Positions 3,675 to 50,831 of a DNA stretch of 64,000 nucleotides are shown here, one piece after another. Positions within the stretch are counted from its first letter, which is position 1, and the number at the start of each line of letters is the position of its first letter. The notes beneath the pieces are model-generated. The model made no database searches and was not told where the DNA came from. It was given only the letters and a program-made list of their open reading frames with translations. The position numbers were made by a program, and so were the translations under genes. This stretch comes from Fibrobacter succinogenes (GTDB lineage: Bacteria > Fibrobacterota > Fibrobacteria > Fibrobacterales > Fibrobacteraceae): NCBI GenBank assembly GCA_902762305.1, contig CACWNW010000010.1, positions 1-64,000 on the forward strand, given 5' to 3'.

Positions 3675-5246
3675 CTAATCGCGATACGTTCCGAGGGCCT
3701 TTATATTGAACCCGCCCACGTAGCCAGTTTTATTGAACACGTCCACGTTGCCAGCTTCATCTTCTATAACGAACCTGATCGAGACAACACGTTTGACAAC
3801 CTCTTCACCCGATATTCTGTATTTTTCAGGATCAGGCAACTTATCCAAATTAATCGGGGTGAATTCATTCCACTTAAAGCATTTTGTCGTTTGCGCGGAA
3901 GATTTCGGCAATACCACCGCCGGCCATTTATAGATATCCAGGTTCTCATTCTCCAGAACATAATCCTGCGATACCCCGTTAAAACCTTCATCCAACGTAA
4001 TCGGGTCCAAATCCAGCGTCATGGAATAATCCGACTGATACGTGACACAGATTCCGCCCCAATTCGATATATCGACGGGCATGCCCACGCCAGAATCGTT
4101 ATGGGCCAGATCGAACCCAAACAACACGAACGGTTTAGTGGTTAGTTCTCCCTGGTCCAACACGACATTGTGACAGCACATGCCATCGCACGCATCGATA
4201 ATATCGTCGAAAGGCGTAGTTCCGTCATACAGGTCACTTAAATACCAATCAAAATAAGATTTACCTCCGTTAACTCGATCCGTATACTCGAACCATTCCC
4301 CATTCTGCAAATGGCTCCAGGAAGAATTCGCATAAAGCGCAGTCTTGACAAATCCATCCTTGGCCGGGCCATCCCACAGATCTCGTGGATAATCGGAACT
4401 GGTCAACACGGCTGCCGAAAAACTTGAAGAGTACTCGGAATAAGTCCCTATAGACTTGATATTGAATTTATATTCTCCCGCACGGCCCGAAAATACGAAC
4501 TTGAATCCAACCAGCTGCTTTGCCGCCTTTACGCCAGCATCGGTCTTCCAGTATTCCGGTGTGTCTTGCAACCATTGGGGAACCCTGACGGAGCTCCATT
4601 TTCTGCACTCCGTAATGGGTTCGCCATCCCTTGAGTAATACATGTTTACACGGGGATAGTCGAAGACATAATCTTTGTCAAGGAAATCTAGCGAGTCCGC
4701 AACCACAAATTGCAACGTCGGCGAAAGATCCGACGTATACGTCATGCAAATGCCGTCCCAATCAGAGACATCGACGGGAACGGGATTACCCGCGTCATCC
4801 TTCGCAAGCGTAAAGCGGACACCCACAAACGGATCGGCAACGTCCCCCCAGTAGTCACCCAGAACGACCGTTCCGCAAATGCCATTGCACGAATCAATAA
4901 TGGTCTGTTCATCCTCCGGGCCAATCAAATCCGTCGGCCAAATCACAAACGAGGAACCTCCATTTCCGGAATCCGTTTCCAGCTTCCAATGGCCATCCGG
5001 TTTCGCATTCACGGACAACATGGGCGCATAGCGATTGGCATTAATGGAGAACGTGCCCGCACTCGGGTTCCACAAATCACCTATTCCCGAATCGAACGAT
5101 CCCGAAGAAGATCTCGCCACCGAACTCGACGATGTCAACGCCATCGTATTCGGCTCCGTCGACGTTCCCGCAAGCCCATTTTCTTCCGAGCACGCCACCA
5201 AGGCTAACGCCACGGCTCCGCACGCCAAATAAACATTACGCTTCAT
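3675..5246 (-). CDS. Lipoprotein with two tandem beta-type domains, paired with TIGR02147 gene 1
   Basis: The 523-residue product starts at ATG 5246, preceded on its strand by GGGGAGG. It overlaps the end of the upstream TIGR02147 gene by 11 nt, so translation is probably coupled. The N-terminus is a lipoprotein signal with lipobox LVAC (Cys19), then SEENGLAGTSTEPN and a Ser-rich linker. The body contains two diverged copies of one domain of roughly 220 residues, marked by DVSDWDGICMTYTSDLSPTL versus DISNWGGICVTYQSDYSMTL, and by CNGICGTVVL versus CDGMCCHNVVL. Both copies end in similar KFNIKSIGTY/GFNIKALGTY strands. The fold may be a galactose-binding-like sandwich. I do not recognise a named family; outer-membrane or surface location is inferred. 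Confidence 0.75.
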   Translation of the reverse strand: MKRNVYLACGAVALALVACSEENGLAGTSTEPNTMALTSSSSVARSSSGSFDSGIGDLWNPSAGTFSINANRYAPMLSVNAKPDGHWKLETDSGNGGSSFVIWPTDLIGPEDEQTIIDSCNGICGTVVLGDYWGDVADPFVGVRFTLAKDDAGNPVPVDVSDWDGICMTYTSDLSPTLQFVVADSLDFLDKDYVFDYPRVNMYYSRDGEPITECRKWSSVRVPQWLQDTPEYWKTDAGVKAAKQLVGFKFVFSGRAGEYKFNIKSIGTYSEYSSSFSAAVLTSSDYPRDLWDGPAKDGFVKTALYANSSWSHLQNGEWFEYTDRVNGGKSYFDWYLSDLYDGTTPFDDIIDACDGMCCHNVVLDQGELTTKPFVLFGFDLAHNDSGVGMPVDISNWGGICVTYQSDYSMTLDLDPITLDEGFNGVSQDYVLENENLDIYKWPAVVLPKSSAQTTKCFKWNEFTPINLDKLPDPEKYRISGEEVVKRVVSIRFVIEDEAGNVDVFNKTGYVGGFNIKALGTYRD

Positions 5247-6081
5247 TTTTTTCCTCCCCTTTTTTTTCAACCTCTTTTGTAAGAGGGAATAACTGTAAAT
5301 TCAACCTGTAAACCTGCCTGATATCGGTACACGATTCTGCAATCGCGACAATCCGCTTGCGGCATTCCGCCAGTTCAAGAGCAATCCGTTCGTAGGCAGC
5401 ACGGTCGACGCCCAGCGTGATGCCGGTGATGTCGCGCTCATCGGCAGTAAACTTGTCCAGCGCATCAATCGCGAGCCGTCCCATTTCGCGGTGCATGGAA
5501 CGTATAGCGAGCGGAAGCCCCTCCTTAGACCCCATTACGGACTTTTCCGTCTGTACATAGGCATCCTCCCCCACTTTCTTGAGAAGTCCCGCCCGCTCTA
5601 GGAACGCAATCGATTTACGAACTTCCAGTGCCGATACCTCTTGGCAACACACCTTTGCCATCTCCCCCGGCATAGAGCCCTGCATTATCGGAGCCAGTTC
5701 GCGTACCACCGGATTCTTCCAGCTCTCGTAATATTCAAAAGCCTCCTTGTCTATCACGCGAACCTTATGATCGAGTGCTATCGATTGCATCTGTTCCAAA
5801 AAAACTTTCTTGGCGGCATCCTTCTTGGCGTTGCCGAACTGGACCATCGCCTCGAAGTACGCCACCTCGTGACCCACAAGCCCCACCGCCGCGGCCACGC
5901 GCCCCATTGTCACCTTGCTCAAATTAGTCTTGCCTTCACAAACCATCTTGAGATAAGAAGGCGAAGAAAACCCCGCAATCTTCGCAAACTCGCGCCATGA
6001 AAAAGCAGAAGTCCTCTTGCGCTCTTCATAGTAGTCGCTCAAGAAAGCGTGGTAGTCTTGATATTCAACAATCGTCTTCAT
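5236..6081 (-). CDS. TIGR02147/DUF4423 family putative regulator 1
   Basis: This 281-residue protein belongs to the TIGR02147 family, heavily expanded in Fibrobacter and of unproven function. ATG 6081 (MKTIVEYQDY) is chosen because the family begins at this point, although the frame extends upstream. Residues about 20-75 look like a helix-turn-helix (SWREFAKIAGFSSPSYLKMV, then LSKVTMGRVAAAVGL). The middle has YYESWKNPVVRELAPIM and the end has VYRLNLQLFPLTK, both recurring in the other copies. No signal peptide or membrane segment is seen, so it is likely cytosolic. It is followed by the lipoprotein at 3675-5246 with an 11-nt overlap. DNA binding and autoregulation are inferences. Confidence 0.85.
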   Translation of the reverse strand: MKTIVEYQDYHAFLSDYYEERKRTSAFSWREFAKIAGFSSPSYLKMVCEGKTNLSKVTMGRVAAAVGLVGHEVAYFEAMVQFGNAKKDAAKKVFLEQMQSIALDHKVRVIDKEAFEYYESWKNPVVRELAPIMQGSMPGEMAKVCCQEVSALEVRKSIAFLERAGLLKKVGEDAYVQTEKSVMGSKEGLPLAIRSMHREMGRLAIDALDKFTADERDITGITLGVDRAAYERIALELAECRKRIVAIAESCTDIRQVYRLNLQLFPLTKEVEKKGEEKNEA

Positions 6082-6192
6082 ACAAATGAATATACAGTCA
6101 AAAAATTTAAAAGTCAATAGTTTATAGAACATTTTTTCATTATTTTTCGTAATTTCCGCATTTTTCTTTAGTTAAAAAACGATTTTATTTCT

Positions 6193-9124: not shown

Positions 9125-9241
9125 ATGAAGCTCGCACAAACTGTCTTTCTAAAACAATTGATACTATTACGTATCGAATTTCTGCGATTCTTCCTTAGAA
9201 AGCAATTCCTAGCGCAGAAATCTTTCTGGAACCTTTTCTAA
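9125..9241 (+). CDS. Short ORF of 38 residues downstream of the leader, possibly a remnant
   Basis: ATG 9125 follows an AAAGGA ribosome-binding-like sequence and reads MKLAQTVFLKQLILLRIEFL and on to a stop at 9239-9241. The composition is hydrophobic and basic. It runs antisense into the last 33 bases of the LlaJI-type nuclease gene. It could be the 5' stump of a transposase or host gene cut by insertion of the restriction island, or a small peptide gene under the upstream attenuator. No function can be assigned. Confidence 0.3.
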   Translation: MKLAQTVFLKQLILLRIEFLRFFLRKQFLAQKSFWNLF

Positions 9242-10606
9242 GATTACATTACTCAAATCAGCCATATCGTCATCAGAATGAAAAGGATGTCTTTGCATAA
9301 TAGAACGAACGTCTAATAATATTCCATAAATACGATCGTATGACTTTTCCATTGATGTATTTAACCGCCACTCACATTTGGCATAACCAAAATTTTCAAG
9401 ACAATAAGATTTGCCGTCATTTTCATTCGCCGCATATGGTAATATGAATGCGTTGAAAACATTATCTCTGTCAGCATTCCGTTTATCATCTTGAGCAGAA
9501 CCATTCGACACGACAGAGGATTTTTCATTATTCTGCCCACGCAATATTGTCTCAACAAATTCAGCATATGCAATTTGCTTGAGAATCGATTCCGACCCAG
9601 GAAGAGTTTTTGGATCGCGAGCGCCCGACTTATTTTTCCCGTCATCACCATACTGGTAGTATTTAGCGTCTAGTACAAAAATTTTCTTGTTTCCTTTTAA
9701 TTCCATTATTGCATCAGGACGCAACGAGGTTTGCTTCGCCTCACATGACTTGTCATTAGCATTTCCAATTGCTTCGTTTTTTTCGAAAATAGACCACGAG
9801 CATTTTGGATAATATTTATTCTTTTCTTTTATTCCAAAAACATGATCAATCAATTTTTCCCATACATACTCGAAATCCTTCGTTCCAAAGTTCGTCTTAC
9901 AATCATCCGATTTTATTCCATGGGATTGAATGATGTCTAGCATGTTTTTGAACAATAGCAAATGCTTTTCATTGAAAGTTTTTTCAATCTTTGAACGAAT
10001 GACTGCCGAAAATACAGCCGCGTTGAAAGGAATCGTCGGCTTTTCTGGTTGTGAATAGCCCAAAAGACTTATTAATTTTTCATAAGCCTCATAAACACAA
10101 AACTTATGTATTTGTGTTATCAACTCATTTTCGTTATTCGATGATTTTTTCGTTATAAAATTGAAATAGACGGCGCTCTCATGCGGATAATTACCAGCAA
10201 TTTTCGGACGCACTCGTTTAATCGTTTTTGACCAATTAATCTTTCCCCCATCCGCTTTTTTGTAAACTGATTCTTTTTCAACATAATAACCATTATCCAA
10301 AAAAAAGCTAAAAACATGAATGTAAGCAAGTATAGGCAATTGCACACTTTCATCTTTTATAGAACTTTCTTTCTCAACTTCATTACATTTTTTCGCAAAT
10401 CTTGAAAGCACCTTTACCAAATTCAAAATATCTTTTCTAAAAAATTTCTCATCAGCAGACTCCGGCACTGAATAACCGAAGGGGAAAAATACCTTAATAT
10501 TTCCCTTATCATAACGAATGCCAACAAATCCATCTGATTGCTTGGTTCCATAAACACAAGCTTCTGAAAGAGGTAAACATTCTTTTTTCAAATTAGATTT
10601 GCTCAT
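9209..10606 (-). CDS. LlaJI-family restriction endonuclease subunit
   Basis: The 465-residue product is the likely nuclease partner of the McrB-like protein encoded 12 nt upstream. It resembles the LlaJI/YdjA restriction endonuclease family, whose R2-type subunit works with a McrB-like NTPase. A PD-(D/E)xK-type core is visible near residue 300: LRPDAIMELKG, then a strand with FVLDAKYYQYG giving Asp-x-Lys. The N-terminal half is charged and rich in Lys, Asn and Ser. The start is ATG 10606. Composition is clearly AT-rich compared with maeB upstream and the AGCS gene downstream, which fits acquisition by transfer. Substrate site is unknown. Confidence 0.8.
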   Translation of the reverse strand: MSKSNLKKECLPLSEACVYGTKQSDGFVGIRYDKGNIKVFFPFGYSVPESADEKFFRKDILNLVKVLSRFAKKCNEVEKESSIKDESVQLPILAYIHVFSFFLDNGYYVEKESVYKKADGGKINWSKTIKRVRPKIAGNYPHESAVYFNFITKKSSNNENELITQIHKFCVYEAYEKLISLLGYSQPEKPTIPFNAAVFSAVIRSKIEKTFNEKHLLLFKNMLDIIQSHGIKSDDCKTNFGTKDFEYVWEKLIDHVFGIKEKNKYYPKCSWSIFEKNEAIGNANDKSCEAKQTSLRPDAIMELKGNKKIFVLDAKYYQYGDDGKNKSGARDPKTLPGSESILKQIAYAEFVETILRGQNNEKSSVVSNGSAQDDKRNADRDNVFNAFILPYAANENDGKSYCLENFGYAKCEWRLNTSMEKSYDRIYGILLDVRSIMQRHPFHSDDDMADLSNVILEKVPERFLR

Positions 10607-10618
10607 TTAAAAAATATT

Positions 10619-12463
10619 CTACACTTCATCACTAGAAGAACTCGAAGATTTTGGCGGTTGCAAATCACTTATGGACGTATCCGTAAAAACATCAAATCCT
10701 TGCTCATTAAATTTTTCAACAAGTTCTTCTAAAGTTCTAATTTCTCCAAAATGATCAGAACGGCTAAATTTGAACGCATCATCCCAAAGATACTTGAGCA
10801 CCTTTTCGGCAAAATTATCCGATTTTACATAGAACCAGCCTCCAAGTCTCTTGTCTTCCATACTCGAAAGCCCATTTTCCAGCGCAGATTCCATAATGAC
10901 TTCATTTATCGCCTTGCGGAAGTCGCCCCATTTAACATTAGTATCAACAAGAATGTTTTTTCCATCCTTATCTTTTGCATTACGTTTAATCGTTTGGTTG
11001 TACTGGTCAGCAGAAGCGCCCGTATTTTCCAATTCGCTCGATATCTGCTTCATTGTCCAGCGGCGCTGAAACGCATTATCCAGCGTAAACACATTTTGGT
11101 CGCTTGTATTCATAGTCGCATAGATAGACAAATTTGGAGGAAGTCTAATTCCACAATACGACGAGAAATGCAAACCAATGGAAGGAATCTTTATTGCAGC
11201 CTGTGGGTCATCAGCGAAATCACTATCGTATTCAACACCAGGCTCTTTTTCCGTGACAGACGATTCTCCACCCTGTAAAATATATTCATTTAGTTCGTCA
11301 TTATTAATAGGGTATCGACTCCACCCTTCAGAATAACCATAATTTTCATTACAAACTTCTTCAGTTTTCGAAGTTTCTCCTGTTACGTATCTATCTAACA
11401 ATTGGAATGTTTCGCCAAAAATAGCAGCAGCATTTCCACGGTTGATTTCTTCGATGACAAGGAAATAAGGTTTCTGAGGATTTAAATAAGCACTGCGAAT
11501 AATTCTTGCAAATGGTCCTGGTTTAAATTCATACTTAAATTCGCCAGCACTATTCTTCTTGGGCATTATTTGACCAATAAAATCAGTATAGCAATAGTCA
11601 GGATGAAATACAGTACGGATTACCTGCTTAGCACATACCAATTTATCATTATCATCTTTATTTGCGTTATATGCCGCTATGCGATTATTTATTTCCACAT
11701 CAACAGAATGGCTCTTGCCACTACCCGGAACACCGTAGTAGATGATTTGGGAGGGGGAGAATGGAGATTGTTTTGACGCAACAACTTTCTTTTTATCTTT
11801 TTGTTCAGTAGCGTCGCATTCAGCATTTAACTCTTCATTGGGATGCTGTTCCTTCCACAACTTTTCAAACTCATCATTTCTTGCATCTTTATTTTTGTAT
11901 TTTCTTTCTTCATCGCTAATTTTTATTCCGTACAAATGAAGTTCATCTTCATTTAAAATTTTCATTTTCAGGATGGCCCAACTTGATTTCCGTCCATAAA
12001 TATTTGAAATGGCTTCAATACAATTTTTATTTACTTCTCTCCCTTGATATGTCAAGTTTTTACTAAACTTCAATTGCCTTCTTTCAAAATGTATATTAGG
12101 TTCACCTTTGTTATTTTTTCGTCTTAAATCTTTTGTTATGTACATCAACAGTTTCTGACCCGTCAATTTTTTTCCGTTTAAATAGACTTTAGGAAATAGT
12201 GATGTTAAAACAAATTCTTTATCATCGTAATCATCAAAATGTTGAAGTTTTCCGCCTTTACCTAGACCAACCATAACCTCATTTTCATCTTGAATTTTGT
12301 AATAAACCATTGCGGTTAGAATCTCGTCTATTCCAGCCTCGGTAAATGTATGCTTTTCACTCTGACCGACTTCCATTCCCCAATCAGGATTTGATCGGAA
12401 GTCATTAATTGACGGAGTCCAAACAGAAACATTGTTTGTGAATGCAGTATTTTTTAATTTCAT
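10619..12463 (-). CDS. McrB-like AAA+ restriction subunit
   Basis: This 614-residue AAA+ GTPase/ATPase of the McrB branch is predicted to drive DNA translocation for the LlaJI-type nuclease encoded next. ATG 12463 overlaps the methyltransferase stop by one base (TAATG) and follows GGAGG, so it is preferred over the ATG at 12478. The N-terminal 200 or so residues have no recognised fold and may bind target DNA. The AAA core has Walker A YYGVPGSGKS, a Walker B-like FLVIEEINRGNAAAIFGE, and the McrB signature ATMNTSDQN...LDNAFQRRW. The C-terminus is a short Ser-rich tail. Low GC matches its two operon partners. Confidence 0.88.
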   Translation of the reverse strand: MKLKNTAFTNNVSVWTPSINDFRSNPDWGMEVGQSEKHTFTEAGIDEILTAMVYYKIQDENEVMVGLGKGGKLQHFDDYDDKEFVLTSLFPKVYLNGKKLTGQKLLMYITKDLRRKNNKGEPNIHFERRQLKFSKNLTYQGREVNKNCIEAISNIYGRKSSWAILKMKILNEDELHLYGIKISDEERKYKNKDARNDEFEKLWKEQHPNEELNAECDATEQKDKKKVVASKQSPFSPSQIIYYGVPGSGKSHSVDVEINNRIAAYNANKDDNDKLVCAKQVIRTVFHPDYCYTDFIGQIMPKKNSAGEFKYEFKPGPFARIIRSAYLNPQKPYFLVIEEINRGNAAAIFGETFQLLDRYVTGETSKTEEVCNENYGYSEGWSRYPINNDELNEYILQGGESSVTEKEPGVEYDSDFADDPQAAIKIPSIGLHFSSYCGIRLPPNLSIYATMNTSDQNVFTLDNAFQRRWTMKQISSELENTGASADQYNQTIKRNAKDKDGKNILVDTNVKWGDFRKAINEVIMESALENGLSSMEDKRLGGWFYVKSDNFAEKVLKYLWDDAFKFSRSDHFGEIRTLEELVEKFNEQGFDVFTDTSISDLQPPKSSSSSSDEV

Positions 12464-13521
12464 TATAATTGCCTCCATATATGGGTTAGAAGGATTCCGA
12501 CAATGTTTACGTCCCAGCCGTTGCCTGCTCTTTTAGACAATTGGGAATATGATTGTCCGTCAAAGTTGATTTCGCAAATCTTTTTATCGCGAGAAATGTC
12601 AAATCCCATAAGGCGAAATTGTTCGTGAACGGACATCTTTCGAACAATTTCCTTGCCTTTGTCTTTGCCAGACTTCTTGGGAGGTTCAATAACACGAAGA
12701 CTATTATGTTCAGGCTGAGTAATTGTTATGCTGTACCCATCTTTCTTGATTTTCTTGTTATACACATCAAAACACAAAGGCGTTTTTACGACAAAAGAAT
12801 CAATATGATGTTTCTCCTTCAAATGAGCAATTTGTTCATCTGACAGATAAAGAAATTTTTCAGGGGAATTGTCCAAGAAATCTGCCATTTTCAAATCACT
12901 TTGGATTTCTGGAGGCTTTATTTCAAAGTTTTCCGGTAATCCACCTAATCGAGCGAACATCCAAAGGCGCTCTCTATTTTGCGGAACCCCATAATCCTTC
13001 GAGTTCAGAACAACCTTTGCCAATGTGTTTTCTTCCGTCGTGCCATATCCCATTTCAATCAAGTCTTTTACAAGTTGATCGTGGATGGGCTTAAACTTTC
13101 CAGAAGTAAAGCCTTTAACATTTTCCAAAAGGATATAATTCGGCTTTTTTACTCGACATATTCGAATGATATGTCCAAGCATTGCCCCTCGACCATAGGG
13201 ATCTTCGGTTCCCAATTGCATTCCTGCGGAAGAGAATGGCTGGCAAGGAAAACCGCCTGTAAACAAATCAAAATCAGGCAATTCATTAGGGTCAATCTGT
13301 GTGATGTCGCCCCAATTCTTTATAGGGTTTCCTTTCACGTCACGATGATTCGCATCAAATAACTTCGAAGCGTATTTATCGAACTCTGAATAACCAACAA
13401 CAGTGTAATCAAAATTCGTCAAAGCTTTTTTTGCTCTTTTCAATCCAAAGGATGCTCCGCCATAACCAGCAAAGCCTTCAAAAACTCTGAGTACATTCTT
13501 CTTCTGTCGAGTCTGGGCCAT
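12463..13521 (-). CDS. DNA (cytosine-5-)-methyltransferase
   Basis: The 352-residue C5-cytosine methyltransferase should protect host DNA from the nuclease encoded downstream. Motif I is VFEGFAGYGGASFG, motif IV is GFPCQPFSSAG with the catalytic Cys in PC, motif VI is ILLENVKGF, motif VIII is QNRERLW, and motif X is GNGWDVNIVG. All key motifs appear intact. ATG 13521 follows a GGAG. It is the first gene of a three-gene operon with one-base overlap to the McrB-like gene. LlaJI and BsuMI systems usually have two methyltransferases; only one is seen here. Recognition sequence cannot be read from the sequence. Confidence 0.95.
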   Translation of the reverse strand: MAQTRQKKNVLRVFEGFAGYGGASFGLKRAKKALTNFDYTVVGYSEFDKYASKLFDANHRDVKGNPIKNWGDITQIDPNELPDFDLFTGGFPCQPFSSAGMQLGTEDPYGRGAMLGHIIRICRVKKPNYILLENVKGFTSGKFKPIHDQLVKDLIEMGYGTTEENTLAKVVLNSKDYGVPQNRERLWMFARLGGLPENFEIKPPEIQSDLKMADFLDNSPEKFLYLSDEQIAHLKEKHHIDSFVVKTPLCFDVYNKKIKKDGYSITITQPEHNSLRVIEPPKKSGKDKGKEIVRKMSVHEQFRLMGFDISRDKKICEINFDGQSYSQLSKRAGNGWDVNIVGILLTHIWRQL

Positions 13522-23044: not shown

Positions 23045-23228
23045 GCACACTTGCACCGGAGCCGTAGACAAGTTCGATGCAAATTATCAAGGAACAAGAA
23101 CCCCTTGCGATACAAGCAATTTATGTTTTTTCCTAGGCTTGAGCGGCTTTTTTATGCGAAGGTGTGGACAAAAATGTCAACATCCCCGTAAAAAACACTG
23201 GAGAACGGCGCTGAAAATTTGAAAAATT

Positions 23229-23265: not shown

Positions 23266-24111
23266 ATGTTCTCGAAAAGCAAAATAAACGTTTACGACTT
23301 CTCCGACTACCGCAAGTTCATGCAGACGTTCTACGAACTCGAAAAGTCGCTGGACCCGACGTTCAGCTACCGCGTCTTCGCGGCCGCAGTCGACATGGAC
23401 GCGAGCCTCCTCGTGAAAATCCTGCAGGGCAAGCGGCACGTCTCTTCAAAGTGCATCGAGTCGTTCGTGCGCTTTTTCCGGTTCAAGGAAGCGAAGGCGG
23501 AATATTTCCGCGAGATGGTCGCCTACGGCAAGGCGAAAAACGACGAGCAGGTCCGCAAGCATTTCGAGACGCTCCAGAAGATGCGCCCCGCCGCATGCCG
23601 CGAACTCGACGAAGCGCGCTACCGCTATTTCCAGCAGTGGTACTACCCGATGATCCGCTCGGCGCTGGACGTATTCGACTACCGCGGGCCCGATGACGCC
23701 GCCGCGCTCGGGGATTCCTGCATCCCGAAACTCACCGCGGCCCAGGTCCAGAACGCGGTAGAATCCCTTCAGCAGCTAGAGCTGGTCCACACGCGCAAGG
23801 ACGGGAGAACTGTCCCCACCGAGGCGCACCTGAAAACGATGGAGCACTGGCTGAGCGCCTCCATCAGCGACTACCAGAAAAGCATCGCAGAACTCGCCCG
23901 CGACTCGATTGCGAACACGCCGAAAGAAAAGCGCGACATCAGCACGCTCACCATGGCGCTCGATTCCAGCCAGATAGAGAAAATCCGCGAGATTCTAGCC
24001 GACACGCGCAAGGCAATCGTGAGGGTGGTGAACGCGATGCCCTCGCAGGTCTGCGACAGCGTCTACCAGTTGAATTTCCAGTTGTTCCCGATGATGAGAA
24101 AGGAAGATTGA
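23266..24111 (+). CDS. TIGR02147/DUF4423 family putative regulator 2
   Basis: This 281-residue protein has the family layout: an N-terminal VYDFSDYRKFMQTFYE, an HTH-like block (FSYRVFAAAVDMDASLLVKI, then HVSSKCIESFVRFFRFKE), a middle YRYFQQWYYPMIRSALDVF, and a C-terminal SVYQLNFQLFPM. It is more diverged from copies 1 and 3 than those are from each other. Its TGA stop shares one base with the ATG of the lipoprotein gene that follows. No export signal. Transcriptional control of that operon is an inference. Confidence 0.85.
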   Translation: MFSKSKINVYDFSDYRKFMQTFYELEKSLDPTFSYRVFAAAVDMDASLLVKILQGKRHVSSKCIESFVRFFRFKEAKAEYFREMVAYGKAKNDEQVRKHFETLQKMRPAACRELDEARYRYFQQWYYPMIRSALDVFDYRGPDDAAALGDSCIPKLTAAQVQNAVESLQQLELVHTRKDGRTVPTEAHLKTMEHWLSASISDYQKSIAELARDSIANTPKEKRDISTLTMALDSSQIEKIREILADTRKAIVRVVNAMPSQVCDSVYQLNFQLFPMMRKED

Positions 24112-25325
24112 TGAAAAAGTTCTTGGAGTTACTGTCTTGCATCGCGTTTGCCGTAGGCTGCACGGATCCCGGGCACGGCACGGCGGGCGCCACAAGCGAG
24201 ACGACGAACGGGATTGCCGTCATTGCGTTTGACGGCACCCACAAGCCGATACCGCAGGCGCGCGTTACCTTGTATAGGCACCCTGATGCAGGTTCGAACA
24301 AAAGTTCGTCCGATGAAACAATTCAAGACGTAACGGCGTTCCTTCCTTCCTATGTCTCTGCGGTAGAAACCGCCACTGCGGATGATTCCGGAATGGTGCA
24401 GTTCGAAACACGGGTAGACCAGTGCCAGAATGCAAGGTGCTTTGTCGAGGGAATCGCCGGCGAGGACTCCTCGCTCATGGTGTGGGCGAAACTCACTGCA
24501 GCAGATTCTACGACGAATGAAATTGAGCTCCTGCCGTCCGTTTCGCTTACGGTGCGCACCGGGGCTGCTGACTCGGCTGTTGCAAATTCGTTCGGCTCAG
24601 TCTTGCTTAACGCTTCCCCCTACTATGCAAGGCAAGAAGGGAACGAGTTTGTGTTCCCGCATGTCCCGTCAGGGAAATATACTGTCGTTATGTGGGGAGA
24701 GCCTGTCGCCAATGTTTCGCTTGATGCGGGAGCTTCCGTCGACACGCTCATGCGCATCCAGGAATTGACCCGCGAATACGTCTTCGAGGATTTCGATGAC
24801 GGAGACAGTCTGAACAACCTGGCGAAGGACTACCCGAATTACGGCTGGTACTTCATGCCGCACAAGGGAGCTTCATTCGAAAGTCCTAATTATACAGACG
24901 GCTTTGCGGGGGCGCTGGTAGACGATGGTGCCCGCGGGAAGTACCTCTCGCTGAAATACACCATCGAAGATTCGGGCTACGTGATGCTCGGAACGCACCT
25001 CGGGCTCGATTCCGGCTACTTTGACCTGAGTTCGCTCTCCGCAATCCGAATAAAAGTCCGCGGGGACTGCCTGTTCGCCGTTGCGCTTGAACACTACCGC
25101 GAAATCGAGAACAACAACTACAACAAGGCACTTTGGTTTGCGAAGGCGGGCGAAGAATGGACCGAACTGGTCTTGCGCCCCGGTAAGGAAACGCTGGACG
25201 CAAAGAATTACCAGGTCGCGTGGGACGAAATCTCGAACGAGATCGGCATATTCAGCATCTTCATATATAACGGTTCCCGCCTAGAAATCGACGAGATCGT
25301 GTTCGAGGGAATCTCGGGACTATAA
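24111..25325 (+). CDS. Lipoprotein with carboxypeptidase-like and galactose-binding-like domains, paired with TIGR02147 gene 2
   Basis: The 404-residue product begins MKKFLELLSCIAFAVGC, with a lipobox ending at Cys17, then TDPGHGTAGATSETTNG. Residues about 28-95 read like a carboxypeptidase-regulatory beta-sandwich (GIAVIAFDGTHKPIPQARVTLY). From about 220 a CBM11/CIA30-like galactose-binding fold is likely: YVFEDFDDGDSLNNLAKDY, LSSLSAIRIKVRGD, WTELVLRPGKETLD, SRLEIDEIVFEG. It starts on the last base of the TIGR02147 stop. Surface carbohydrate binding or sensing is an inference. Confidence 0.75.
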   Translation: MKKFLELLSCIAFAVGCTDPGHGTAGATSETTNGIAVIAFDGTHKPIPQARVTLYRHPDAGSNKSSSDETIQDVTAFLPSYVSAVETATADDSGMVQFETRVDQCQNARCFVEGIAGEDSSLMVWAKLTAADSTTNEIELLPSVSLTVRTGAADSAVANSFGSVLLNASPYYARQEGNEFVFPHVPSGKYTVVMWGEPVANVSLDAGASVDTLMRIQELTREYVFEDFDDGDSLNNLAKDYPNYGWYFMPHKGASFESPNYTDGFAGALVDDGARGKYLSLKYTIEDSGYVMLGTHLGLDSGYFDLSSLSAIRIKVRGDCLFAVALEHYREIENNNYNKALWFAKAGEEWTELVLRPGKETLDAKNYQVAWDEISNEIGIFSIFIYNGSRLEIDEIVFEGISGL

Positions 25326-25459: not shown

Positions 25460-27043
25460 TTAGTCTTCGCCATATATGGATATATATTGTTCTTCATCAT
25501 AAATTTCTATATACCTTTCTTTTCCGCCATACAATTCTAGCAGCCTATCTTTTTCAAACGTCTCAAACCATTCTTCATAATGGCGCGACCTAAGAGTATA
25601 AGTCCATTCGCCATACGGCTCTATTCTTTCAAGGCTTTCCGGCTTATCGCAATTCCATTTATCGCTCACATAAGTCTTTTTTACAATGGGGCGGTCTAGG
25701 ACATCCCAGTATGGGGAAGCCACTGTCAAAATCGTAAAATAGTGGACAGAAGTATCTTCCGGGCAATTTCCGCTTTTCACGATATCCGTCACGTATATCC
25801 CGCTCTCGTCAGTTTTGCTCACCAAGTGCCCCTTTGCACCAACATCCTTTATGACAATGATGTAGAATATTTTTGGGGGATTCCATTTAAAACTTTCCAA
25901 TCCCCCCGGATATGTCGCCACCGTAGGGAAAAACGCCTCCACTAGCGAATCAGGCAATACATAAACACCTTCTTTGCGGTAATCGTCTGCGATTTTGGTG
26001 TCGGGCAATGTGTTGTAAGCAAGCCCCCAATCCCTACCAATTTCACGATACTCTCTTTCTTCATACACAAAATGATCACTTTCATCAACCCCGATTGTAC
26101 TATCGATTATCGTGAATTGCCATCTATAAGCCTCCATTATATGCTTTATACTATCACCCCATTCACGCCTCAATATAGATACAGTCCGGACGCTATCTTT
26201 ATATAGGCTGTCAGAATAGGGATCGACATAAACATAGTTTTCATCATCGAAGGGCGCATACTTTATGGAATCATCGAGGCACTGGTTTTTATATTTCTCA
26301 ATATACGAATTCAAGAAATCATCAAGGCTTTTCTCTTCAGGAACAAAAGATGCGCAAGCCACATTCAACGTATTATCGCTACAGCCGTCTCTAAAATCTA
26401 CAAAGAGCCCATTCAATGCACTGCAAGAGTACTTAAACTGGTTTAGGTAATCAAGGCAACTAACACCATACCCATAGAATCCTGCATACAGCGAATTTTC
26501 CACTGTATTCAAGACAACAGGAACGCCATCAACATCAACTATTTTAGTGTTAATAATCGTTTCATTACGGTGATTTGCCAAATAATCATCGGCACATTCT
26601 TCTTCAGAATAGCGACAATCGTGATCATGAATATCGTACGACCTCGCTTGTAGTACACCCTTTTGATCTTTCCCATCTAGTTGCGTATAGGTCACGACAT
26701 CGCAAACCTTACGGTCGTCTTTACTCGGATAACTAAAAATTTGATCGTTCTTCACTTTATATGGGGTCGTGTTAAAATAATCGTGATAATGCAAGAAATA
26801 ACCATAATTACCTATTGAATCAAAGTCAAGAACAGCTTTTAATGAATCAACTTTCGTAGAATCCACCAAAGTGAAGAACGACCTTGCCAGAAAGGCTTTC
26901 TGCTCGTCTGTCAATTTTGCAATGGGCGACGTACTCGGTTCCGTAGTCGCCCCAGAAACCCCCTGATCAACACTCGCATCGTTGTAACAGGCGGCCAAGA
27001 AAGCCGTCACGCTTGCCAAAATAGCCTTGCATATATTCTTCAT
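25460..27043 (-). CDS. Lipoprotein paired with TIGR02147 gene 3
   Basis: The 527-residue product begins MKNICKAILASVTAFLAACY with a lipobox ending at Cys19, then NDASVDQGVSGATTEPS. The rest is rich in Tyr, Asp and Glu, with several Cys pairs (CDVVTYTQL, HDCRYSEEECADDY, CLDYLNQFKYSC, CNVACASF-like), suggesting a disulfide-stabilised exported domain. No known family is recognised. It starts one base after the TIGR02147 stop, and its ribosome site AAGGAGG lies within the end of that gene. The C-terminus is Tyr-rich. Confidence 0.7.
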   Translation of the reverse strand: MKNICKAILASVTAFLAACYNDASVDQGVSGATTEPSTSPIAKLTDEQKAFLARSFFTLVDSTKVDSLKAVLDFDSIGNYGYFLHYHDYFNTTPYKVKNDQIFSYPSKDDRKVCDVVTYTQLDGKDQKGVLQARSYDIHDHDCRYSEEECADDYLANHRNETIINTKIVDVDGVPVVLNTVENSLYAGFYGYGVSCLDYLNQFKYSCSALNGLFVDFRDGCSDNTLNVACASFVPEEKSLDDFLNSYIEKYKNQCLDDSIKYAPFDDENYVYVDPYSDSLYKDSVRTVSILRREWGDSIKHIMEAYRWQFTIIDSTIGVDESDHFVYEEREYREIGRDWGLAYNTLPDTKIADDYRKEGVYVLPDSLVEAFFPTVATYPGGLESFKWNPPKIFYIIVIKDVGAKGHLVSKTDESGIYVTDIVKSGNCPEDTSVHYFTILTVASPYWDVLDRPIVKKTYVSDKWNCDKPESLERIEPYGEWTYTLRSRHYEEWFETFEKDRLLELYGGKERYIEIYDEEQYISIYGED

Positions 27044-27044
27044 T

Positions 27045-27866
27045 TTAAACCTCCTTCCCCTTAGTCAGCGGGAACAGTTGTAAATTCAATCGGTAAACTT
27101 TGTCGTATTCCTTTTCCTTGGCTGCGATGGATACAACCTCCTTCCGCAGCATTTCAAGTTTTTCCACCAGCCACCTATACGTAGGTTCGGACAAGCCCAG
27201 CGTCACGCCTGCAACATGGCGACTTTCCGCCGGAACATTGTCAATCGCCGCAGTCGCAAGTTTTGACATTTGGCGGTTCATAGAGCGCAAAGCCAGCGGA
27301 ATCGCCTCGGAAGAACCCGTCACGACTTTTTCTGTCTGCTCGAAAGCACCCTCGCCAACCTTCCTCAGGAAATCTGCATGCACCAAGAAATCCAGGGACT
27401 GGCGAATATCGGCAGCACTCACCACGGGATAGCAGTTGCGGGCAAGTTCCAGCGGTTTTGCGCCCGGCATAATCGGGGCGAGTTCGCGCATTACGGGATT
27501 CACCCACGACTCAAAATACTTGAACGCCTCCGCATCGACGACACGCAAACGGTTTTCCTTCGCGATTTTCTGCATCTCGTTGAACGCCTGCATTTTCTTC
27601 GCGTCGTCCCGCGCATCGCCAAAACGTTCCATGGCACGGAAATAGTCGCGGTCGGCATCTTCGAGCTCCATGGCATCGGCAACCCCCTCGACTCCCCTCT
27701 TGCTCAAACGGCTTTTGCCTTCACATACAAGCTGCATGTAGTTGGGCGAAGAGAACCCCGCCAGGCGAGAAAACTCGCGCCAAGAGAACACGGAAGAACG
27801 TTTGCGCTCCTCATAATAGTCCTGCATGTATTTTCGATAGTCTTGATATTCAAAAATCGGTTTCAT
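27045..27866 (-). CDS. TIGR02147/DUF4423 family putative regulator 3
   Basis: The 273-residue protein starts at ATG 27866 (MKPIFEYQDYRKYMQDYYEE). It is close to copy 1: both have EYQDY, YYEERKR[ST]S, FSWREF and AGFSSP, YFESWVNPVMRELAPIMPG, and VYRLNLQLFPLTKG. The HTH-like region is at about residues 20-75. It is the first gene of a two-gene operon with the lipoprotein at 25460-27043. No export or membrane features are seen. Confidence 0.85.
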   Translation of the reverse strand: MKPIFEYQDYRKYMQDYYEERKRSSVFSWREFSRLAGFSSPNYMQLVCEGKSRLSKRGVEGVADAMELEDADRDYFRAMERFGDARDDAKKMQAFNEMQKIAKENRLRVVDAEAFKYFESWVNPVMRELAPIMPGAKPLELARNCYPVVSAADIRQSLDFLVHADFLRKVGEGAFEQTEKVVTGSSEAIPLALRSMNRQMSKLATAAIDNVPAESRHVAGVTLGLSEPTYRWLVEKLEMLRKEVVSIAAKEKEYDKVYRLNLQLFPLTKGKEV

Positions 27867-39858: not shown

Positions 39859-41328
39859 TTAGCCGATCAGGGCGAAACCGGGCACGAGGCTCAAGGCGAG
39901 CAGGGCGAGTGCCGCCACCGACACCATGAACTTGAGCATGTAGCCGTAAGGAGAATACGTGCAGGCGCACTTGCATTCGCACTGTTTCTTGCGGGGAGCG
40001 AACAGCACGTAGGCGATACGCAGGTAGTAGACCGCGGCCACCAGCGAGAGCGCGAAGGCGAAAACCGCAATCTTGCCAAGGCCCGCAGAGAACGCGCCCG
40101 TGAAGAGGGCGAACTTCGCGAGGAACCCGGATGCAGGCGGAAGGCCTGCAAGGCTTGCAAGGCAGACCGTGACACCGAGCGCCACGAACGGACGCCTGCG
40201 GCCTGCACCCTGAATATCTTCGAGATTTTCGTTCTTATCTTCCCTGCCGGCAAGGTAGGCGATACCCGTGAGGGCGCCCGCGCTCGCAATCGCGTAGGTG
40301 ACAAGGAAGTAGAACATGGAGCCCAGCTGCACTGTGCCTTCGCCGAGGTAGTTCGGGAGCAACAGGCCGAGCACGATGAAGCCCGCGTTCATCACAGCGG
40401 AGAACGCGATGATGCGACGGATGGATTTCTGGGCAAGGCCGCTGAACGCGCCGATGATAATGGAGAGCACGGCGACGATGGCCACGACATGGTACAGCGA
40501 AGGCCACTGGCCCGCGGCCGTAACAGGTTCGGCCAGGTTCCAGGCAGCGGCAGCACCAGCGCGCGTCACGAGAATGCCAATCCAGAGGGAGCCGAGCGCG
40601 GCAAGCGCACCGACCTTCACGACGGCGGCCATGAAGCCCGTCACCGCGACAGAAGCGCCCGTGTAGACGTCTGCGACCCAGTAATGGACCGGAGCGGCGC
40701 CAGCCTTGAAAAGGAGCCCGAAAACAGTGAGCAGAACGCCCACGGCATAGAGCGAACCGCGGCCTTCAAGAATCGCGGAACTGAAGTGAGTCGTTCCGGT
40801 AGCACCATAAACGAGCGAAACGCCGTAAAGGAAGATGGCGCTGAAGATGGAGCCCGAGACGAAATACTTGAACACGCCTTCGCCCGCATTCTGGTCCTTG
40901 CGGCGGATACCCACGAGGGCATACACCGGGAAGCTCGTAAGTTCCATACCGATAAACAGGGCGAGGAAATCGATAGCCTGCGTCATGAGCACCGCACCAC
41001 ACGAGGCAAGGAGCAACAGCCCGTAGGCTTCACCGCCCTTGTGTTCTTCGTGAGCGAGCGTCCACTGGAGACCGGCAACACCAAGAAGCGCGCACAGCAG
41101 CACCGCAAGCCCAAGCAGGCGGCGCACAGGGTCCATCGCATACAGGTCGTGGCACACGCCCGTATTGACCAGGCAGAACGACGCCATGCCGAAAACCACG
41201 AACACAGAAGCAATCCAAGGGATGACCTTATGCTTGTTTTCGTCCTTGATGAAGGGCTCTACAACGAAGGATGCAAGCGCACCCAGCGCGACCAGGATTA
41301 CCGGGAAAAAGTTGACGATACTAGTCAT
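39859..41328 (-). CDS. nuoN: NADH-quinone oxidoreductase subunit N
   Basis: NuoN is one of the three antiporter-like proton-pumping subunits of complex I. The 489-residue, highly hydrophobic protein has the family segments GLLFKAGAAPVHYWVADVY with the functional Lys, and IIGAFSGLAQKSIRRIIAFSAVMNAG, and GLPPASGFLAKFALF. The start overlaps the 3' end of nuoM by 8 nt. It is the last gene of the operon. Confidence 0.95.
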   Translation of the reverse strand: MTSIVNFFPVILVALGALASFVVEPFIKDENKHKVIPWIASVFVVFGMASFCLVNTGVCHDLYAMDPVRRLLGLAVLLCALLGVAGLQWTLAHEEHKGGEAYGLLLLASCGAVLMTQAIDFLALFIGMELTSFPVYALVGIRRKDQNAGEGVFKYFVSGSIFSAIFLYGVSLVYGATGTTHFSSAILEGRGSLYAVGVLLTVFGLLFKAGAAPVHYWVADVYTGASVAVTGFMAAVVKVGALAALGSLWIGILVTRAGAAAAWNLAEPVTAAGQWPSLYHVVAIVAVLSIIIGAFSGLAQKSIRRIIAFSAVMNAGFIVLGLLLPNYLGEGTVQLGSMFYFLVTYAIASAGALTGIAYLAGREDKNENLEDIQGAGRRRPFVALGVTVCLASLAGLPPASGFLAKFALFTGAFSAGLGKIAVFAFALSLVAAVYYLRIAYVLFAPRKKQCECKCACTYSPYGYMLKFMVSVAALALLALSLVPGFALIG

Positions 41329-43117
41329 TGGAAGCCTCCTCGTTCTTTACGGCCGATTCATCTTGACTTTCCATCGGGACATCGAATTCCTCGTAGCCCT
41401 TGTTAGCGGCGTCGCGGATTCGAGCCTCCTCTTCTTCGCGCTGCTGTTTTTCGGCAGCATATGCGGTGGCCTTTGCCATGTTGGCTTCGGTCTCGATAAC
41501 CTGCTTGATCAGTTCCTTGCGTTCCTCCTCGGAGAAACCTGCCTGAGTCAGCGAGGAATCGAGCTTCGCGATGTCCGCAGAAGAAACGATATGGGATTCG
41601 AGCGGTTCGACGTCTTCTTCGACCTCTTCCTCCTCGACAACTTCTTCAGCAGGAGCTTCGGCCGCAGGCTCTTCCGCGACCTGTTCCGCCACCTCTTCTT
41701 CGTTGAGGTTCAGGGAGTTCGTGATGAAGGACGGGTGGAAACCGAACACCAGGAGGAGCACGAGCATCACGCCGTAGGCAAAACCTTCGAGGTGGCCGGC
41801 ACGTTTGCCCTCAGTGTACTCGCGAGCGGGGTTACCGAAGATGACCTTCTGGATAAAGCGGAGCACGTAGGCCGCCGAAAGAATCATGACAAAACCCATG
41901 ATGCCGGCACATACCGCACTCAGGTCCCAGAGGGAAAGGAGCACGGAGAATTCGCCGATAAAGCCCGCGGTACCCGGAACGGCGAGCGCCATGACGCCCG
42001 CGGCACCGAACAGGAAACTGAATGCGGGATTCTTGTGGGCAAGGCCGCCCATCTCATCGATATTGCGGGTACCCGTCATGCGTTCGGCAACACCAATCAG
42101 GTAGTACTGAACGCCGGCAGAAATACCGTGGGCAACCAGGAGCACGAGAACCGCGGGGAGCATCGCCTCGGAAAGGCTGAACACGCCCGCGACAGCGATA
42201 CCCAAGTGGCTCATGGAGCTAAAGGCAAGGAGCTTCTTGCCGTCGGTCGCACGCAGCGCCATGAACGCGCCGTAGACCGCGGAAGCGAGCCCGAGCCAGA
42301 CCATCGTAGAAACTTCCTGCATGTTGAACGGGAAAATCGGGAGAACCCAGGCGATAAACCCGAACACGCCCGCCTTACTCATCGCACCCGTGAGGATGGC
42401 CGAAAGCGGGGCCGAGGCTTCGGAATATGTGATAGCCTGCCAGCCGTGGAACGGGAAGATCGGGGTCTTCACGATGAAGGCAATCAGGAAGCTCATGAGG
42501 AGAGCAAGCTGCGTCGATTCCGGAACACTCTGGATAGCGACCGCGAGGGACACCAGCAGGGAGTTGTCGGCAATAGTGAGCAGGTACCAGAGAGCGACCA
42601 TCATCGGGGCAGAACCGACGAGCGTGTAAATCGCGAACGTCATCGCAGCCTGCTTGCGCTTCTCGCCGCCGAAACTGGCGATGAGGATTGCAGCCGGAAT
42701 CACCATTGCTTCGAAGAAGAAGAAGAACAGCACGGCGTCTGCGGCAAGGAACGTACCGTTCATCGCACCCATCAAGGCAAAGATGCCGATGGCGAAATTG
42801 CGGTAGTTCGCGCCCAGGATCCCGCGGGCCGATATCAGGGATACCAGCGAGAGCCCGCAAGAAAGGAACACCATCCAGGCGCCAAGGCCGTGGCTGTACA
42901 GGTAGTAGTAAGAGGGGCCCTTGCAGCCGGGAATCTTGAACCATTCCACCGGGGTGGTGGCGGTATTGCCCGAAGCAATCAGTGCCACGGACATGCCCAG
43001 GAACAGAAGCCCAAAGAGGATAGCCATGCGGGTGGCAGCCTTGTAGTCTTCCTTGGAGTTGACGACCATCAAGAGCGCCACGGCAAACGGGGCGAGGACA
43101 AGGAGATGTAACAGCAT
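41321..43117 (-). CDS. nuoM: NADH-quinone oxidoreductase subunit M with long acidic C-terminal tail
   Basis: NuoM is an antiporter-like membrane subunit of complex I. Residues 1 to about 470 match the family (FFFFEAMVIPAAILIASFGGE, FIVKTPIFPFHGWQAITYSEA, FSSMSHLGIAVAGVF). The usual C-terminus is around HPSFITNSLN. Here residues about 472-598 add a tail rich in Glu and Ala, with a likely coiled segment (AGFSEEERKELIKQVIETEA). Such a tail is not normal for NuoM. ATG overlaps the nuoL stop by one base. Confidence 0.95.
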   Translation of the reverse strand: MLLHLLVLAPFAVALLMVVNSKEDYKAATRMAILFGLLFLGMSVALIASGNTATTPVEWFKIPGCKGPSYYYLYSHGLGAWMVFLSCGLSLVSLISARGILGANYRNFAIGIFALMGAMNGTFLAADAVLFFFFFEAMVIPAAILIASFGGEKRKQAAMTFAIYTLVGSAPMMVALWYLLTIADNSLLVSLAVAIQSVPESTQLALLMSFLIAFIVKTPIFPFHGWQAITYSEASAPLSAILTGAMSKAGVFGFIAWVLPIFPFNMQEVSTMVWLGLASAVYGAFMALRATDGKKLLAFSSMSHLGIAVAGVFSLSEAMLPAVLVLLVAHGISAGVQYYLIGVAERMTGTRNIDEMGGLAHKNPAFSFLFGAAGVMALAVPGTAGFIGEFSVLLSLWDLSAVCAGIMGFVMILSAAYVLRFIQKVIFGNPAREYTEGKRAGHLEGFAYGVMLVLLLVFGFHPSFITNSLNLNEEEVAEQVAEEPAAEAPAEEVVEEEEVEEDVEPLESHIVSSADIAKLDSSLTQAGFSEEERKELIKQVIETEANMAKATAYAAEKQQREEEEARIRDAANKGYEEFDVPMESQDESAVKNEEASND

Positions 43118-45144
43118 TAGACCAAACCTCCAGTCAAAAGAACAACAACAACCAGAGCGACGATACCCAGGATGCTAAGCCCAAGCTGCAGACGCACCTT
43201 GCGCACCTGGAAAACCGTAGCGCCGTCACCCAGGATGGTGGCGATGGAACCGAGCGTCCACTGGAACGCCTGCAAGAACGCATCGACGACCTTCTCGCAA
43301 ATCCAGGCGGCCACGTTCACGACCTTCACGAAGAAACCGTGCACGTAATCCCACATGAACGTCCAGCCGGCAGCGTAACCTTCGGGAGCGCTGGAGCCCT
43401 TGGCGGCCGGGATATGGGCATGCATCCAGCCCTTCCAGGCGATGAACATACCAACCACCGCGGCGAGCGTGCCGAGAGCGGCGAAGATAATCGGGTTCAC
43501 ATGTTCCGCAGCGCGCGGGATAAATTCACTCAGCAGGATATCCGGATTGAGCGACCTTGCCGGATCGAAGCTCTGGGCTGCAGCGAGCACCGGAGCAAGA
43601 GAATCGGCGAAGACGCGGACACCCATGTAATCGGCCCAGAGGTAACCGGCGAAAATAGAACCGAACGTCAGCACGATCATCGGGATGAGCATCACGGCCG
43701 GAGCTTCGTGGATATGAGCCTCGTTCTCCTTGCTACCACGGTAGCTACCGAAGAACGTCATGATGATGAGGCGGCCCATGTACACGGCAGTGATGACCGC
43801 GGTAAAGAGGCCGACCACGTAGAAGATCTTGTTCATCGGAACCACAGGGGCAAGCCAGGAACCGGTAATCACCCAGTTGCAGTCCGTGAAGATGCGTTCA
43901 AGGATGAGGTCCTTGGACCAGAAGCCCGCAAATCCCGGGAAGCCGATAATCGCGAGGAACGCGAAAATCATCACGCATGCAGTAACAGGCGTCTTCTTGA
44001 TAAGGCCACCCATATTGCGCATGTCCTGCTCGCCGCCCAGCGCGTGGATAACGGCACCGGCACCGAGGAAGAGGGATGCCTTGAAGAAGGCATGCGTAAA
44101 CACGTGGAAGATGGAGGCATCGAACGCCGATGCGCCCGCGGCCATGAACATGTAGCCGAGCTGGCTAATCGTGGAGTAGGCAAGCACCTTCTTGATATCG
44201 TTCTGGAACAGGCCCGCGAAGGCAGCCCAGAAGGCCGTGAGGGCACCCACCACCAGGATGATGTTCAGCACATCGGGGCAGATGACAAACAGGTTCGAGA
44301 GACGGGCCACCAGGTACACGCCGGAAGTCACCATCGTTGCGGCATGGATGAGGGCCGAAACCGGAGTCGGACCCGCCATGGCATCGGGCAACCAGGTGAG
44401 CAGCGGAATCTGCGCGGACTTACCCGTGCAGCCGACAAAGAACAGGACGCAAGTGATGGTGAGCATCGGCATGATGAGCTCGACGTGACCGCCGGCAATC
44501 AGCATGCTGATGAAATGGTTGAGCATGTCGTAGTTGAGGACGCCCGCACCGCCGAGGGTGACGAGGCTGAGCATACCGAGTAGGAACCCGATATCGCCCA
44601 CGCGGTTCACGATGAACGCCTTGTTCGCAGCCTTGCAGTTCTTGAGGTCCTTGTTCCAGAAGCCGATGAGCAGGTAGGAGCAGAGGCCCACGCCTTCCCA
44701 GCCGAGGAACGTAAGGAGCAGGTTGTCCGAAAGCACGAGCACAATCATGCTGAACAGGAACAGGTTGATGTAGGCGAAGAAGCGGGTGAACCCGCGGTCG
44801 CCGTGCATGTAACCGATGGAGTACAGCGTGATGAGCGTACCGATGCCGGTAACGAACAGCAGCATGATGCGCGAGAGGGCGTCGAACTGGAATCCGATAT
44901 TCACCTTCAGGAGGGGAATGTCAATCCAGTTGCAAATCGTCTCGCGGAATCCGGAAGCGGGCATGTTGACGGCAAGCACCGTCACGCAGGCGAACGAAAT
45001 CGCAGGGAGAATCACGGCGAGCGCGCCGATGAGGTTCTCGGGAGCGCCCTTCTTGTTGCCGGAAGATGTTACGGCAATCGCCCCCAGGATAATTGTTCCC
45101 AGCAGGGGGAAAAGCGGAATTAGCCACAAAGGAATATTCGTCAT
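43117..45144 (-). CDS. nuoL: NADH-quinone oxidoreductase subunit L
   Basis: The 675-residue proton-pumping subunit shows NuoL signatures: SIGYMHGDRGFTRFFAYINL, LTFLGWEGVGLCSYLLIGFW, GKSAQIPLLTWLPDAMAGPT, VSALIHAATMVTSGVYLVAR, and DIKKVLAYSTISQLGYMF. The lateral helix region is at the C-terminus. It starts 3 nt after the nuoK stop and is followed directly by nuoM. Confidence 0.96.
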   Translation of the reverse strand: MTNIPLWLIPLFPLLGTIILGAIAVTSSGNKKGAPENLIGALAVILPAISFACVTVLAVNMPASGFRETICNWIDIPLLKVNIGFQFDALSRIMLLFVTGIGTLITLYSIGYMHGDRGFTRFFAYINLFLFSMIVLVLSDNLLLTFLGWEGVGLCSYLLIGFWNKDLKNCKAANKAFIVNRVGDIGFLLGMLSLVTLGGAGVLNYDMLNHFISMLIAGGHVELIMPMLTITCVLFFVGCTGKSAQIPLLTWLPDAMAGPTPVSALIHAATMVTSGVYLVARLSNLFVICPDVLNIILVVGALTAFWAAFAGLFQNDIKKVLAYSTISQLGYMFMAAGASAFDASIFHVFTHAFFKASLFLGAGAVIHALGGEQDMRNMGGLIKKTPVTACVMIFAFLAIIGFPGFAGFWSKDLILERIFTDCNWVITGSWLAPVVPMNKIFYVVGLFTAVITAVYMGRLIIMTFFGSYRGSKENEAHIHEAPAVMLIPMIVLTFGSIFAGYLWADYMGVRVFADSLAPVLAAAQSFDPARSLNPDILLSEFIPRAAEHVNPIIFAALGTLAAVVGMFIAWKGWMHAHIPAAKGSSAPEGYAAGWTFMWDYVHGFFVKVVNVAAWICEKVVDAFLQAFQWTLGSIATILGDGATVFQVRKVRLQLGLSILGIVALVVVVLLTGGLV

Positions 45145-45147
45145 CGA

Positions 45148-45462
45148 TTAGCCCCTCATGTTGGAATACGAATCCGCATCGATGCTTTCGCGGTTGCGGA
45201 AAATCAGGATGACCATCGCGAACCCGACGCACGCTTCGGCGGCGGCAATGGCGATGGAGAACAGCGGAACAATCTGGCCCGCGACGCTCAATTCGGCAGG
45301 GAGCGTCTTCGCGAAGCCCACGAAGGAAAGGTTCACCGCGTTCAGGGCGAGTTCAACCCCCATGAGCACGAAGATAATGTTCCTGCGCGTGATGGCGACC
45401 AGAATGCCGATGGCAAAAAGCGCAAGGGCAAGAATCTGAATGAAAATGGGTTGGAGTTCCAT
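45148..45462 (-). CDS. nuoK: NADH-quinone oxidoreductase subunit K
   Basis: The 104-residue membrane subunit has three hydrophobic segments and the typical NIIFVLMGVELALNAVNLSFVGF and AAAEACVGFAMVILIFR, with the conserved membrane Glu residues. ATG shares a base with the nuoJ stop. Confidence 0.96.
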   Translation of the reverse strand: MELQPIFIQILALALFAIGILVAITRRNIIFVLMGVELALNAVNLSFVGFAKTLPAELSVAGQIVPLFSIAIAAAEACVGFAMVILIFRNRESIDADSYSNMRG

Positions 45463-49517: not shown

Positions 49518-49521
49518 ATTA

Positions 49522-50829: not shown

Positions 50830-50831
50830 AA

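Follow-up and report, generated by a model that had tools for sequence, protein, structure and literature searches.

The window analysed here, 64,000 nt of contig CACWNW010000010.1 (positions 1 to 64,000) from a 3.6 Mb Fibrobacter succinogenes genome, carries four gene pairs in which a gene for a TIGR02147/DUF4423 regulator is followed by a gene for a lipoprotein. An initial annotation had listed these eight open reading frames, and translation returned the same coordinates and the same regulator-to-lipoprotein spacings of −11, −1, +1 and +7 nt. In pair 1, on the reverse strand, the regulator (5236–6081; TIGR02147 310.8 bits, DUF4423 90.5 bits) overlaps by 11 nt the gene of its partner lipoprotein (3675–5246; lipobox LVAC, C19). 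Pair 2, on the forward strand, consists of a regulator (23266–24111; 231.4 and 111.1 bits) and a partner with a 1-nt overlap (24111–25325; lipobox AVGC, C17). Pair 3, again on the reverse strand, has the highest-scoring regulator (27045–27866; TIGR02147 347.4 bits), followed by a lipoprotein with lipobox LAAC and C19 (25460–27043), and in pair 4, on the forward strand, the regulator (57226–58050; TIGR02147 287.6 bits) precedes a lipoprotein with lipobox FMAC and C22 (58058–59671). All four partners, of 404–537 aa, have a signal peptide and a lipobox. The assignment of the regulators to TIGR02147 held, as all four lie over the curated cut-offs of 50 bits for TIGR02147 (full-length) and 30 bits for PF14394 DUF4423, with scores of 231–347 and 78–111 bits. 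The suggestion of phase-dependent expression was not borne out for phase variation by repeats: tandem repeats are absent within the four gene pairs.

Elsewhere in the window, genes for a LlaJI-type restriction endonuclease, an AAA protein and a cytosine methyltransferase form a restriction-modification cassette (9209–13521, −) with codon use unlike that of the remaining window. A NADH-quinone oxidoreductase (nuo) operon occupies 39859–53083 (−), and one of its genes (47925–49559) matches the N-terminal half of NuoG only.

TIGR02147 genes are followed by genes for exported proteins

The host genome contains 34 TIGR02147 members, all over the cut-off, of which the window pairs make up four; the DUF4423 count was also 34. 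The next gene after every one of the 34 lies on the regulator's strand and encodes a protein with a signal peptide and lipobox; the spacing from regulator stop to partner start codon is −26 to +18 nt (the lipoboxes of L044 and L048, both missed by the pattern, were read by eye, and that of L053 lies further in). About 0.7 Mb of this genome, from which our comparison lipoproteins were drawn, yielded 540 further gene calls, and 57 of these have a lipobox, so the pairing in this genome is not due to chance.

Counting only genes with enough downstream sequence, we found an exported partner after 39/39 TIGR02147 genes in the same genus and 146/148 in other Fibrobacterota, giving 219/221 for the phylum with the host genome included, and after 95/115 in a cross-phylum scan. 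The expectation set out in the initial annotation, that a lipobox gene would start within about 20 nt of most TIGR02147 genes, is thus matched by the 34/34 in this genome and the 219/221 in Fibrobacterota. The family was present in all 41 Fibrobacterota genomes searched (2 to 85 matches each) and in Bdellovibrio bacteriovorus (16 matches); a plasmid search gave no match. Among 333 pairs the most frequent spacing was −4 nt, and 294 partners had a lipobox Cys with signal peptide, the remainder being mostly SPI-like. Most surveyed partners exceed 200 aa, and they are often 200–1000 aa long. In their bodies we found a CBM_4_9 domain, Fib_succ_major domains and weak matches to LamG or CarboxypepD_reg, among them a LamG-like one at the C-terminal end of the pair 4 partner (Pfam E 1.4e-4, below cut-off), which is consistent with putative surface or carbohydrate-binding roles.

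Partners share a tag behind the lipidated cysteine

The lipoproteins had been described as having unrelated bodies. This was correct for most of the protein, but not just past the lipid-anchor cysteine, where the partners have a conserved tag in common. Across 319 partners it spans nine residues with the consensus G-[GT]-[GTS]-[TS]-[ED]-[TV]-[GTE]-N-[GPTA], positions 5-6 being chiefly E-T (short form about GxGTETxN[GP]), and starts at a median of 8 residues from the cleavage site. By motif search, the window tags are AGTSTEPNT in pair 1 (5145–5171, −; 7–15 residues past C19), GATSETTNG in pair 2 (24186–24212, +; the most frequent variant of the survey), GATTEPSTS in pair 3 (26927–26953, −; register uncertain by one residue) and GVLTETESG in pair 4 (58145–58171, +). 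A tag score above 6 bits was reached by 86% of the 319 partners versus 2.7% of body segments. The tag is present in all but a few partners: in some low-scoring ones it lies too near the Cys for scoring (e.g. CFTEVGNA, CGTDTGNP), and one partner of the host genome (L040) has no clear tag. Only two of 57 other lipoproteins from the same genome had a clear tag score, one being the second in a TIGR02147 operon and one an orphan.

Bdellovibrionota and other lineages show the same overlap layout with tag forms GTDVGNP and GTETGNP. In Bacteriovoracaceae the tag sits on SPI-like, non-lipidated exported proteins with starts such as AGGVTVGNG, which indicates that it is independent of lipidation. Judged from these sequences, the tag goes with the regulator gene and neither with lipidation nor with a given body. 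The tag uses the same codons as the bodies, with TCN as well as AGY codons for its serines, which argues for selection on the protein rather than on nucleic acid; an RNA-level origin of the tag was ruled out by this codon use. An Rfam search of the window returned no RNA family.

Two further observations concern the distribution of tags. An orphan lipoprotein at L150 (9352–10812, −) carries a tag-like segment (AHGTTEEENAQI) and has no adjoining TIGR02147 gene. At L035 (4830–15273), two adjoining modules each contain two tagged lipoproteins in series, whose tag variant is identical within each module (SEDAG; ASGDMG) and which are also homologous to each other.

Tag positions are conserved at 1.0–2.9 bits and the flanks at 0.1–0.6 bits, and the distance from Cys to tag varies among partners, so there is no apparent cleavage site. 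This bears on the idea that the tag is cut off and re-imported as a signal of cell density or surface proteolysis, as in PlcR-PapR and the enterococcal pheromones. Such peptide sensing would suit a regulator gene that directly precedes the peptide-carrying gene and a short peptide that co-evolves with its regulator (see below), and lipoprotein-derived pheromones exist (PMC4379056). Besides the variable spacing and poorly conserved flanks, however, the location of the tag in the mature part instead of the signal peptide and the large size of the partners, which are not short propeptides, speak against it, and we regard a released peptide as unlikely.

Tag identity rose with regulator identity even where the bodies had no detectable similarity, from 0.26 at 20–25% regulator identity to about 0.5 at 40–60%. 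Tandem duplicates of pairs exist (contig C14 cluster), and these, with the duplicated lipoproteins of L035, are what would be expected if regulator and lipoprotein were functionally independent and merely co-duplicated. Because the pairing is kept across phyla despite unrelated bodies, and tag identity tracks regulator identity where bodies do not match, we consider this explanation very improbable.

Regulator and tag co-evolve residue by residue

We calculated co-variation as mutual information with average-product correction over 286 pairs (effective number 191), numbering regulator residues as in the pair 3 regulator (27045–27866). Couplings with z of 5–7 connected V245 with tag position 3, F118/Y117 with 4, R241 with 5, N197 and G220 with 6, and A188 and H217 with positions 7–9 (strongest A188-tag7 and H217-tag7/8). 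The N-terminal HTH reached a maximum z of 2.8 with the tag; partner columns flanking the tag reached about 3.5, with flanks and signal peptide near noise. The residue rules are chemically sensible: Glu5 of the tag goes with Arg241 in 93% and Asn8 with Arg216 in 99%, Ser4 pairs with Tyr118, Thr4 with Phe118 and Gly3 with Leu245. The coupled positions lie on one face of a predicted helix (227–249; period 3.6, p 0.0006), and tag-coupled regulator positions are also coupled to one another (N197-G220, H217-V234, A188-N197), so that they would behave as one predicted pocket in the DUF4423 domain.

The ten strongest couplings summed to 58.3, versus at most 23.2 after random re-pairing and at most 46.1 after re-pairing within clades. 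Couplings derived from one half of the clades predicted correlated changes between sister pairs in the other half (partial correlation 0.146 versus 0.001 for rate-matched columns). Below 38% identity, C-terminal couplings gave a combined z of 8.6 and HTH couplings 0.5. With a model trained on C-terminal columns, using only regulators that share less than 45% identity with those of the test genome, the true partner had a mean rank of 5.8/29, 4.3/22 and 4.0/23 in three genomes (z 5.9–7.2), but only 12 of 30 in the host genome (z 3.4). Matching is weak within the genus, and the mean rank in the host genome was 12–13 of 30 over both matching tests. A nearest-neighbour predictor on the whole length matched partners equally well, so that matching alone is compatible with shared descent, and the case against mere shared descent comes from the sister-pair and within-clade tests.

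The same distinction applies if a third protein reads the tag for sorting or processing and its correlation with the regulator reflects joint inheritance only. Its position past the Cys resembles that of known lipoprotein sorting signals, and the performance of the nearest-neighbour predictor agrees with this account. The tag is nevertheless absent from 55 of the 57 other lipoproteins, the signal peptide and the segment past the tag, although inherited jointly to the same degree, are only slightly coupled and never comparably to the tag, and the coupling of the tag both exceeds that of within-clade shuffles and holds in independent sister contrasts. A sorting signal therefore seems to us distinctly unlikely.

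The modelled regulator combines a cro/cI-type HTH with a winged helix

The AlphaFold model of the pair 3 regulator (mean pLDDT 88.8) contains an HTH at residues 8–90, a winged helix at 108–183 and two long helices. Residues 8–90 match the HTHs of P22 c2, DdrO and HigA-type proteins (Z 7–9), making this a cro/cI-type HTH, and the regulator profile has weak matches to C.BclI and CI repressors. Among the matches listed in a fold search with the whole regulator there was no full-length relative, only HTH and winged-helix parts; the match to PrgX had a Foldseek probability of only about 0.2. No TPR domain was found in the regulators with Pfam at E up to 1, and the regulator has no membrane segment. 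In an AlphaFold prediction of a read-through fusion of regulator and partner the tag was undocked and disordered (pLDDT ~42), which is only mild negative evidence because just nine aligned rows held both parts and the signal peptide served as linker.

Module promoters carry candidate operators

Upstream of pair 1, promoter alignment revealed a promoter-like TTGACT-17-TATATT preceded by TGTTCTATAAAC (6089–6131, −; a consensus match only), whose −10 box ends 7 nt before the ATG. Many regulator promoters have a −10 box ending 6–11 nt from the ATG, which suggests that many module mRNAs may be near-leaderless. An operator-like palindrome, GTGGACAAAAATGTCAAC, lies upstream of pair 2 (23164–23181, +) and is kept in orthologues, with 0 occurrences expected in the window by chance. 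The genome has three such sites: before 23266, before the closest paralogue (contig C11) and at ~83.5 kb on contig C7. The last (G000:C7:83485–83502) has one mismatch and lies away from any listed TIGR02147 gene. Orthologue-wise footprinting yielded group-specific sites, among them the palindrome GTGGACAAAAATGTC[AC]AC in the orthologous group that includes the window gene at 23266 and TGTTCYC repeats in the promoter of another group, and palindrome discovery across all 34 promoters returned mainly A-tract patterns. The own-promoter palindromes fit local autoregulation by putative binding. Together with the pairing in 34/34 and 219/221 cases and with regulator and tag tracking each other while bodies swap, they bear out the modular regulator/lipoprotein unit that the initial annotation had proposed.

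A shared AT-rich element scored above 20 bits (leave-one-out) in 21/34 regulator promoters and 2/88 other promoters. In many Fibrobacter regulator promoters this element abuts the −35 box, a site used by lambda-type activators. That placement, and the dozens of parallel modules per genome, would suit positive feedback, with each regulator activated by the tagged product of its operon; the modules would then act as bistable switches and produce a combinatorial mosaic at the cell surface. We think this improbable. Two genes outside the TIGR02147 family, L134:1107–3791 (−) and L146:7621–9669 (−), have promoters that score like regulator promoters and are possible trans targets.

A proposed circuit that reads a tag on an unexported precursor

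Our best reading, toward which we lean with modest confidence, is that TIGR02147 proteins regulate their own operons and bind the tag carried by the operon's product. Each would be a one-component DNA-binding protein, with a cro/cI-type HTH, a winged helix and the rest of DUF4423, encoded just before, and usually overlapping, the gene of one exported protein. From the coupling pattern we infer that the DUF4423 domain would directly bind the linear tag in the first residues past the partner's signal peptide. More tentatively, the bound form might be the cytosolic precursor awaiting export, and the regulator might gauge output against export capacity and tune transcription of its own operon through the palindrome in its own promoter. 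Since the regulator has no membrane segment, the tag comes immediately after the signal peptide and no cleavage signature flanks it, the cytosolic precursor would be the simplest site of recognition. The regulation would probably be negative feedback.

Somewhat short of an even chance, in our estimate, is the wider proposal of a new sensor class: transcription factors that read a barcode-like linear tag at the mature N-terminus of a neighbour-encoded exported protein. With a separate tag and operator for every factor, they would form dozens of surface-protein circuits per cell, under separate control and possibly bistable and surface-diversifying.

Large paralogous HTH families adjoining a dedicated partner gene are also found in Streptomyces, where WhiJ-like regulators accompany DUF397 proteins. 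Likened by description, the two arrangements agree in this respect and differ in the partner, since DUF397 proteins are small and cytosolic and the partners here are exported. The RRNPPA systems (PlcR-PapR, Rgg-SHP, PrgX-cCF10; PMC9765709) likewise have a cytosolic HTH regulator, and the modules here would share with them the putative recognition of a neighbour-encoded short peptide and the candidate sites in the regulator's own promoter. Our regulators, in contrast, have a winged helix and DUF4423 with no TPR domain detected, do not come from Firmicutes, and are paired not with a short propeptide gene but with the gene of a large exported protein, where the peptide lies at the start of the mature part with no visible processing site. 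The lipoprotein-derived pheromones cAD1 of Enterococcus and PplA of Listeria (PMC4379056) resemble the tag as a putative regulatory peptide from a lipoprotein gene; they derive from the cleaved signal peptide, whereas the tag lies past the Cys and the regulator is encoded by the preceding gene.

The library entries to which the window regulators belong by score, TIGR02147 (Fsuc_second) and PF14394 (DUF4423), are recorded as a paralog family and a domain of unknown function, with no partner, tag or ligand, and the open-licence papers searched held no description of a TIGR02147/DUF4423 pairing, tag or ligand. Our comparisons of sequence suggest what may be a widespread, undescribed bacterial way of sensing a cell's own exported proteins. 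They offer a candidate function and a testable ligand for a family that ranks among the largest still unexplained in cellulose-degrading rumen bacteria and related organisms, and that is also found in predatory bacteria (Bdellovibrio bacteriovorus). If tag binding is true, these regulators would be a class that monitors individual exported proteins via a linear tag, would explain a possible control of large surface-lipoprotein repertoires, and would provide a wealth of natural receptor-tag pairs that could serve as orthogonal parts.

Variant family members in Bdellovibrionota

A TIGR02147 subfamily of Bdellovibrionota (e.g. L204, L155, L181, L220) has no exported neighbour and often a longer open frame. 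Its members mostly have Lys and Val/Ile at positions 117/118, where partnered regulators are aromatic, and they may lack a partner or have one that acts in trans. Like the L040 partner without a clear tag, this subfamily counts against the tag-binding reading. At L365–L387 (Bdellovibrio, Bacteriovoracaceae), remoter DUF4423 genes precede genes for exported proteins that begin with a GNGG-type sequence (e.g. RGNGGDVVIC), perhaps a distant version of the tag.
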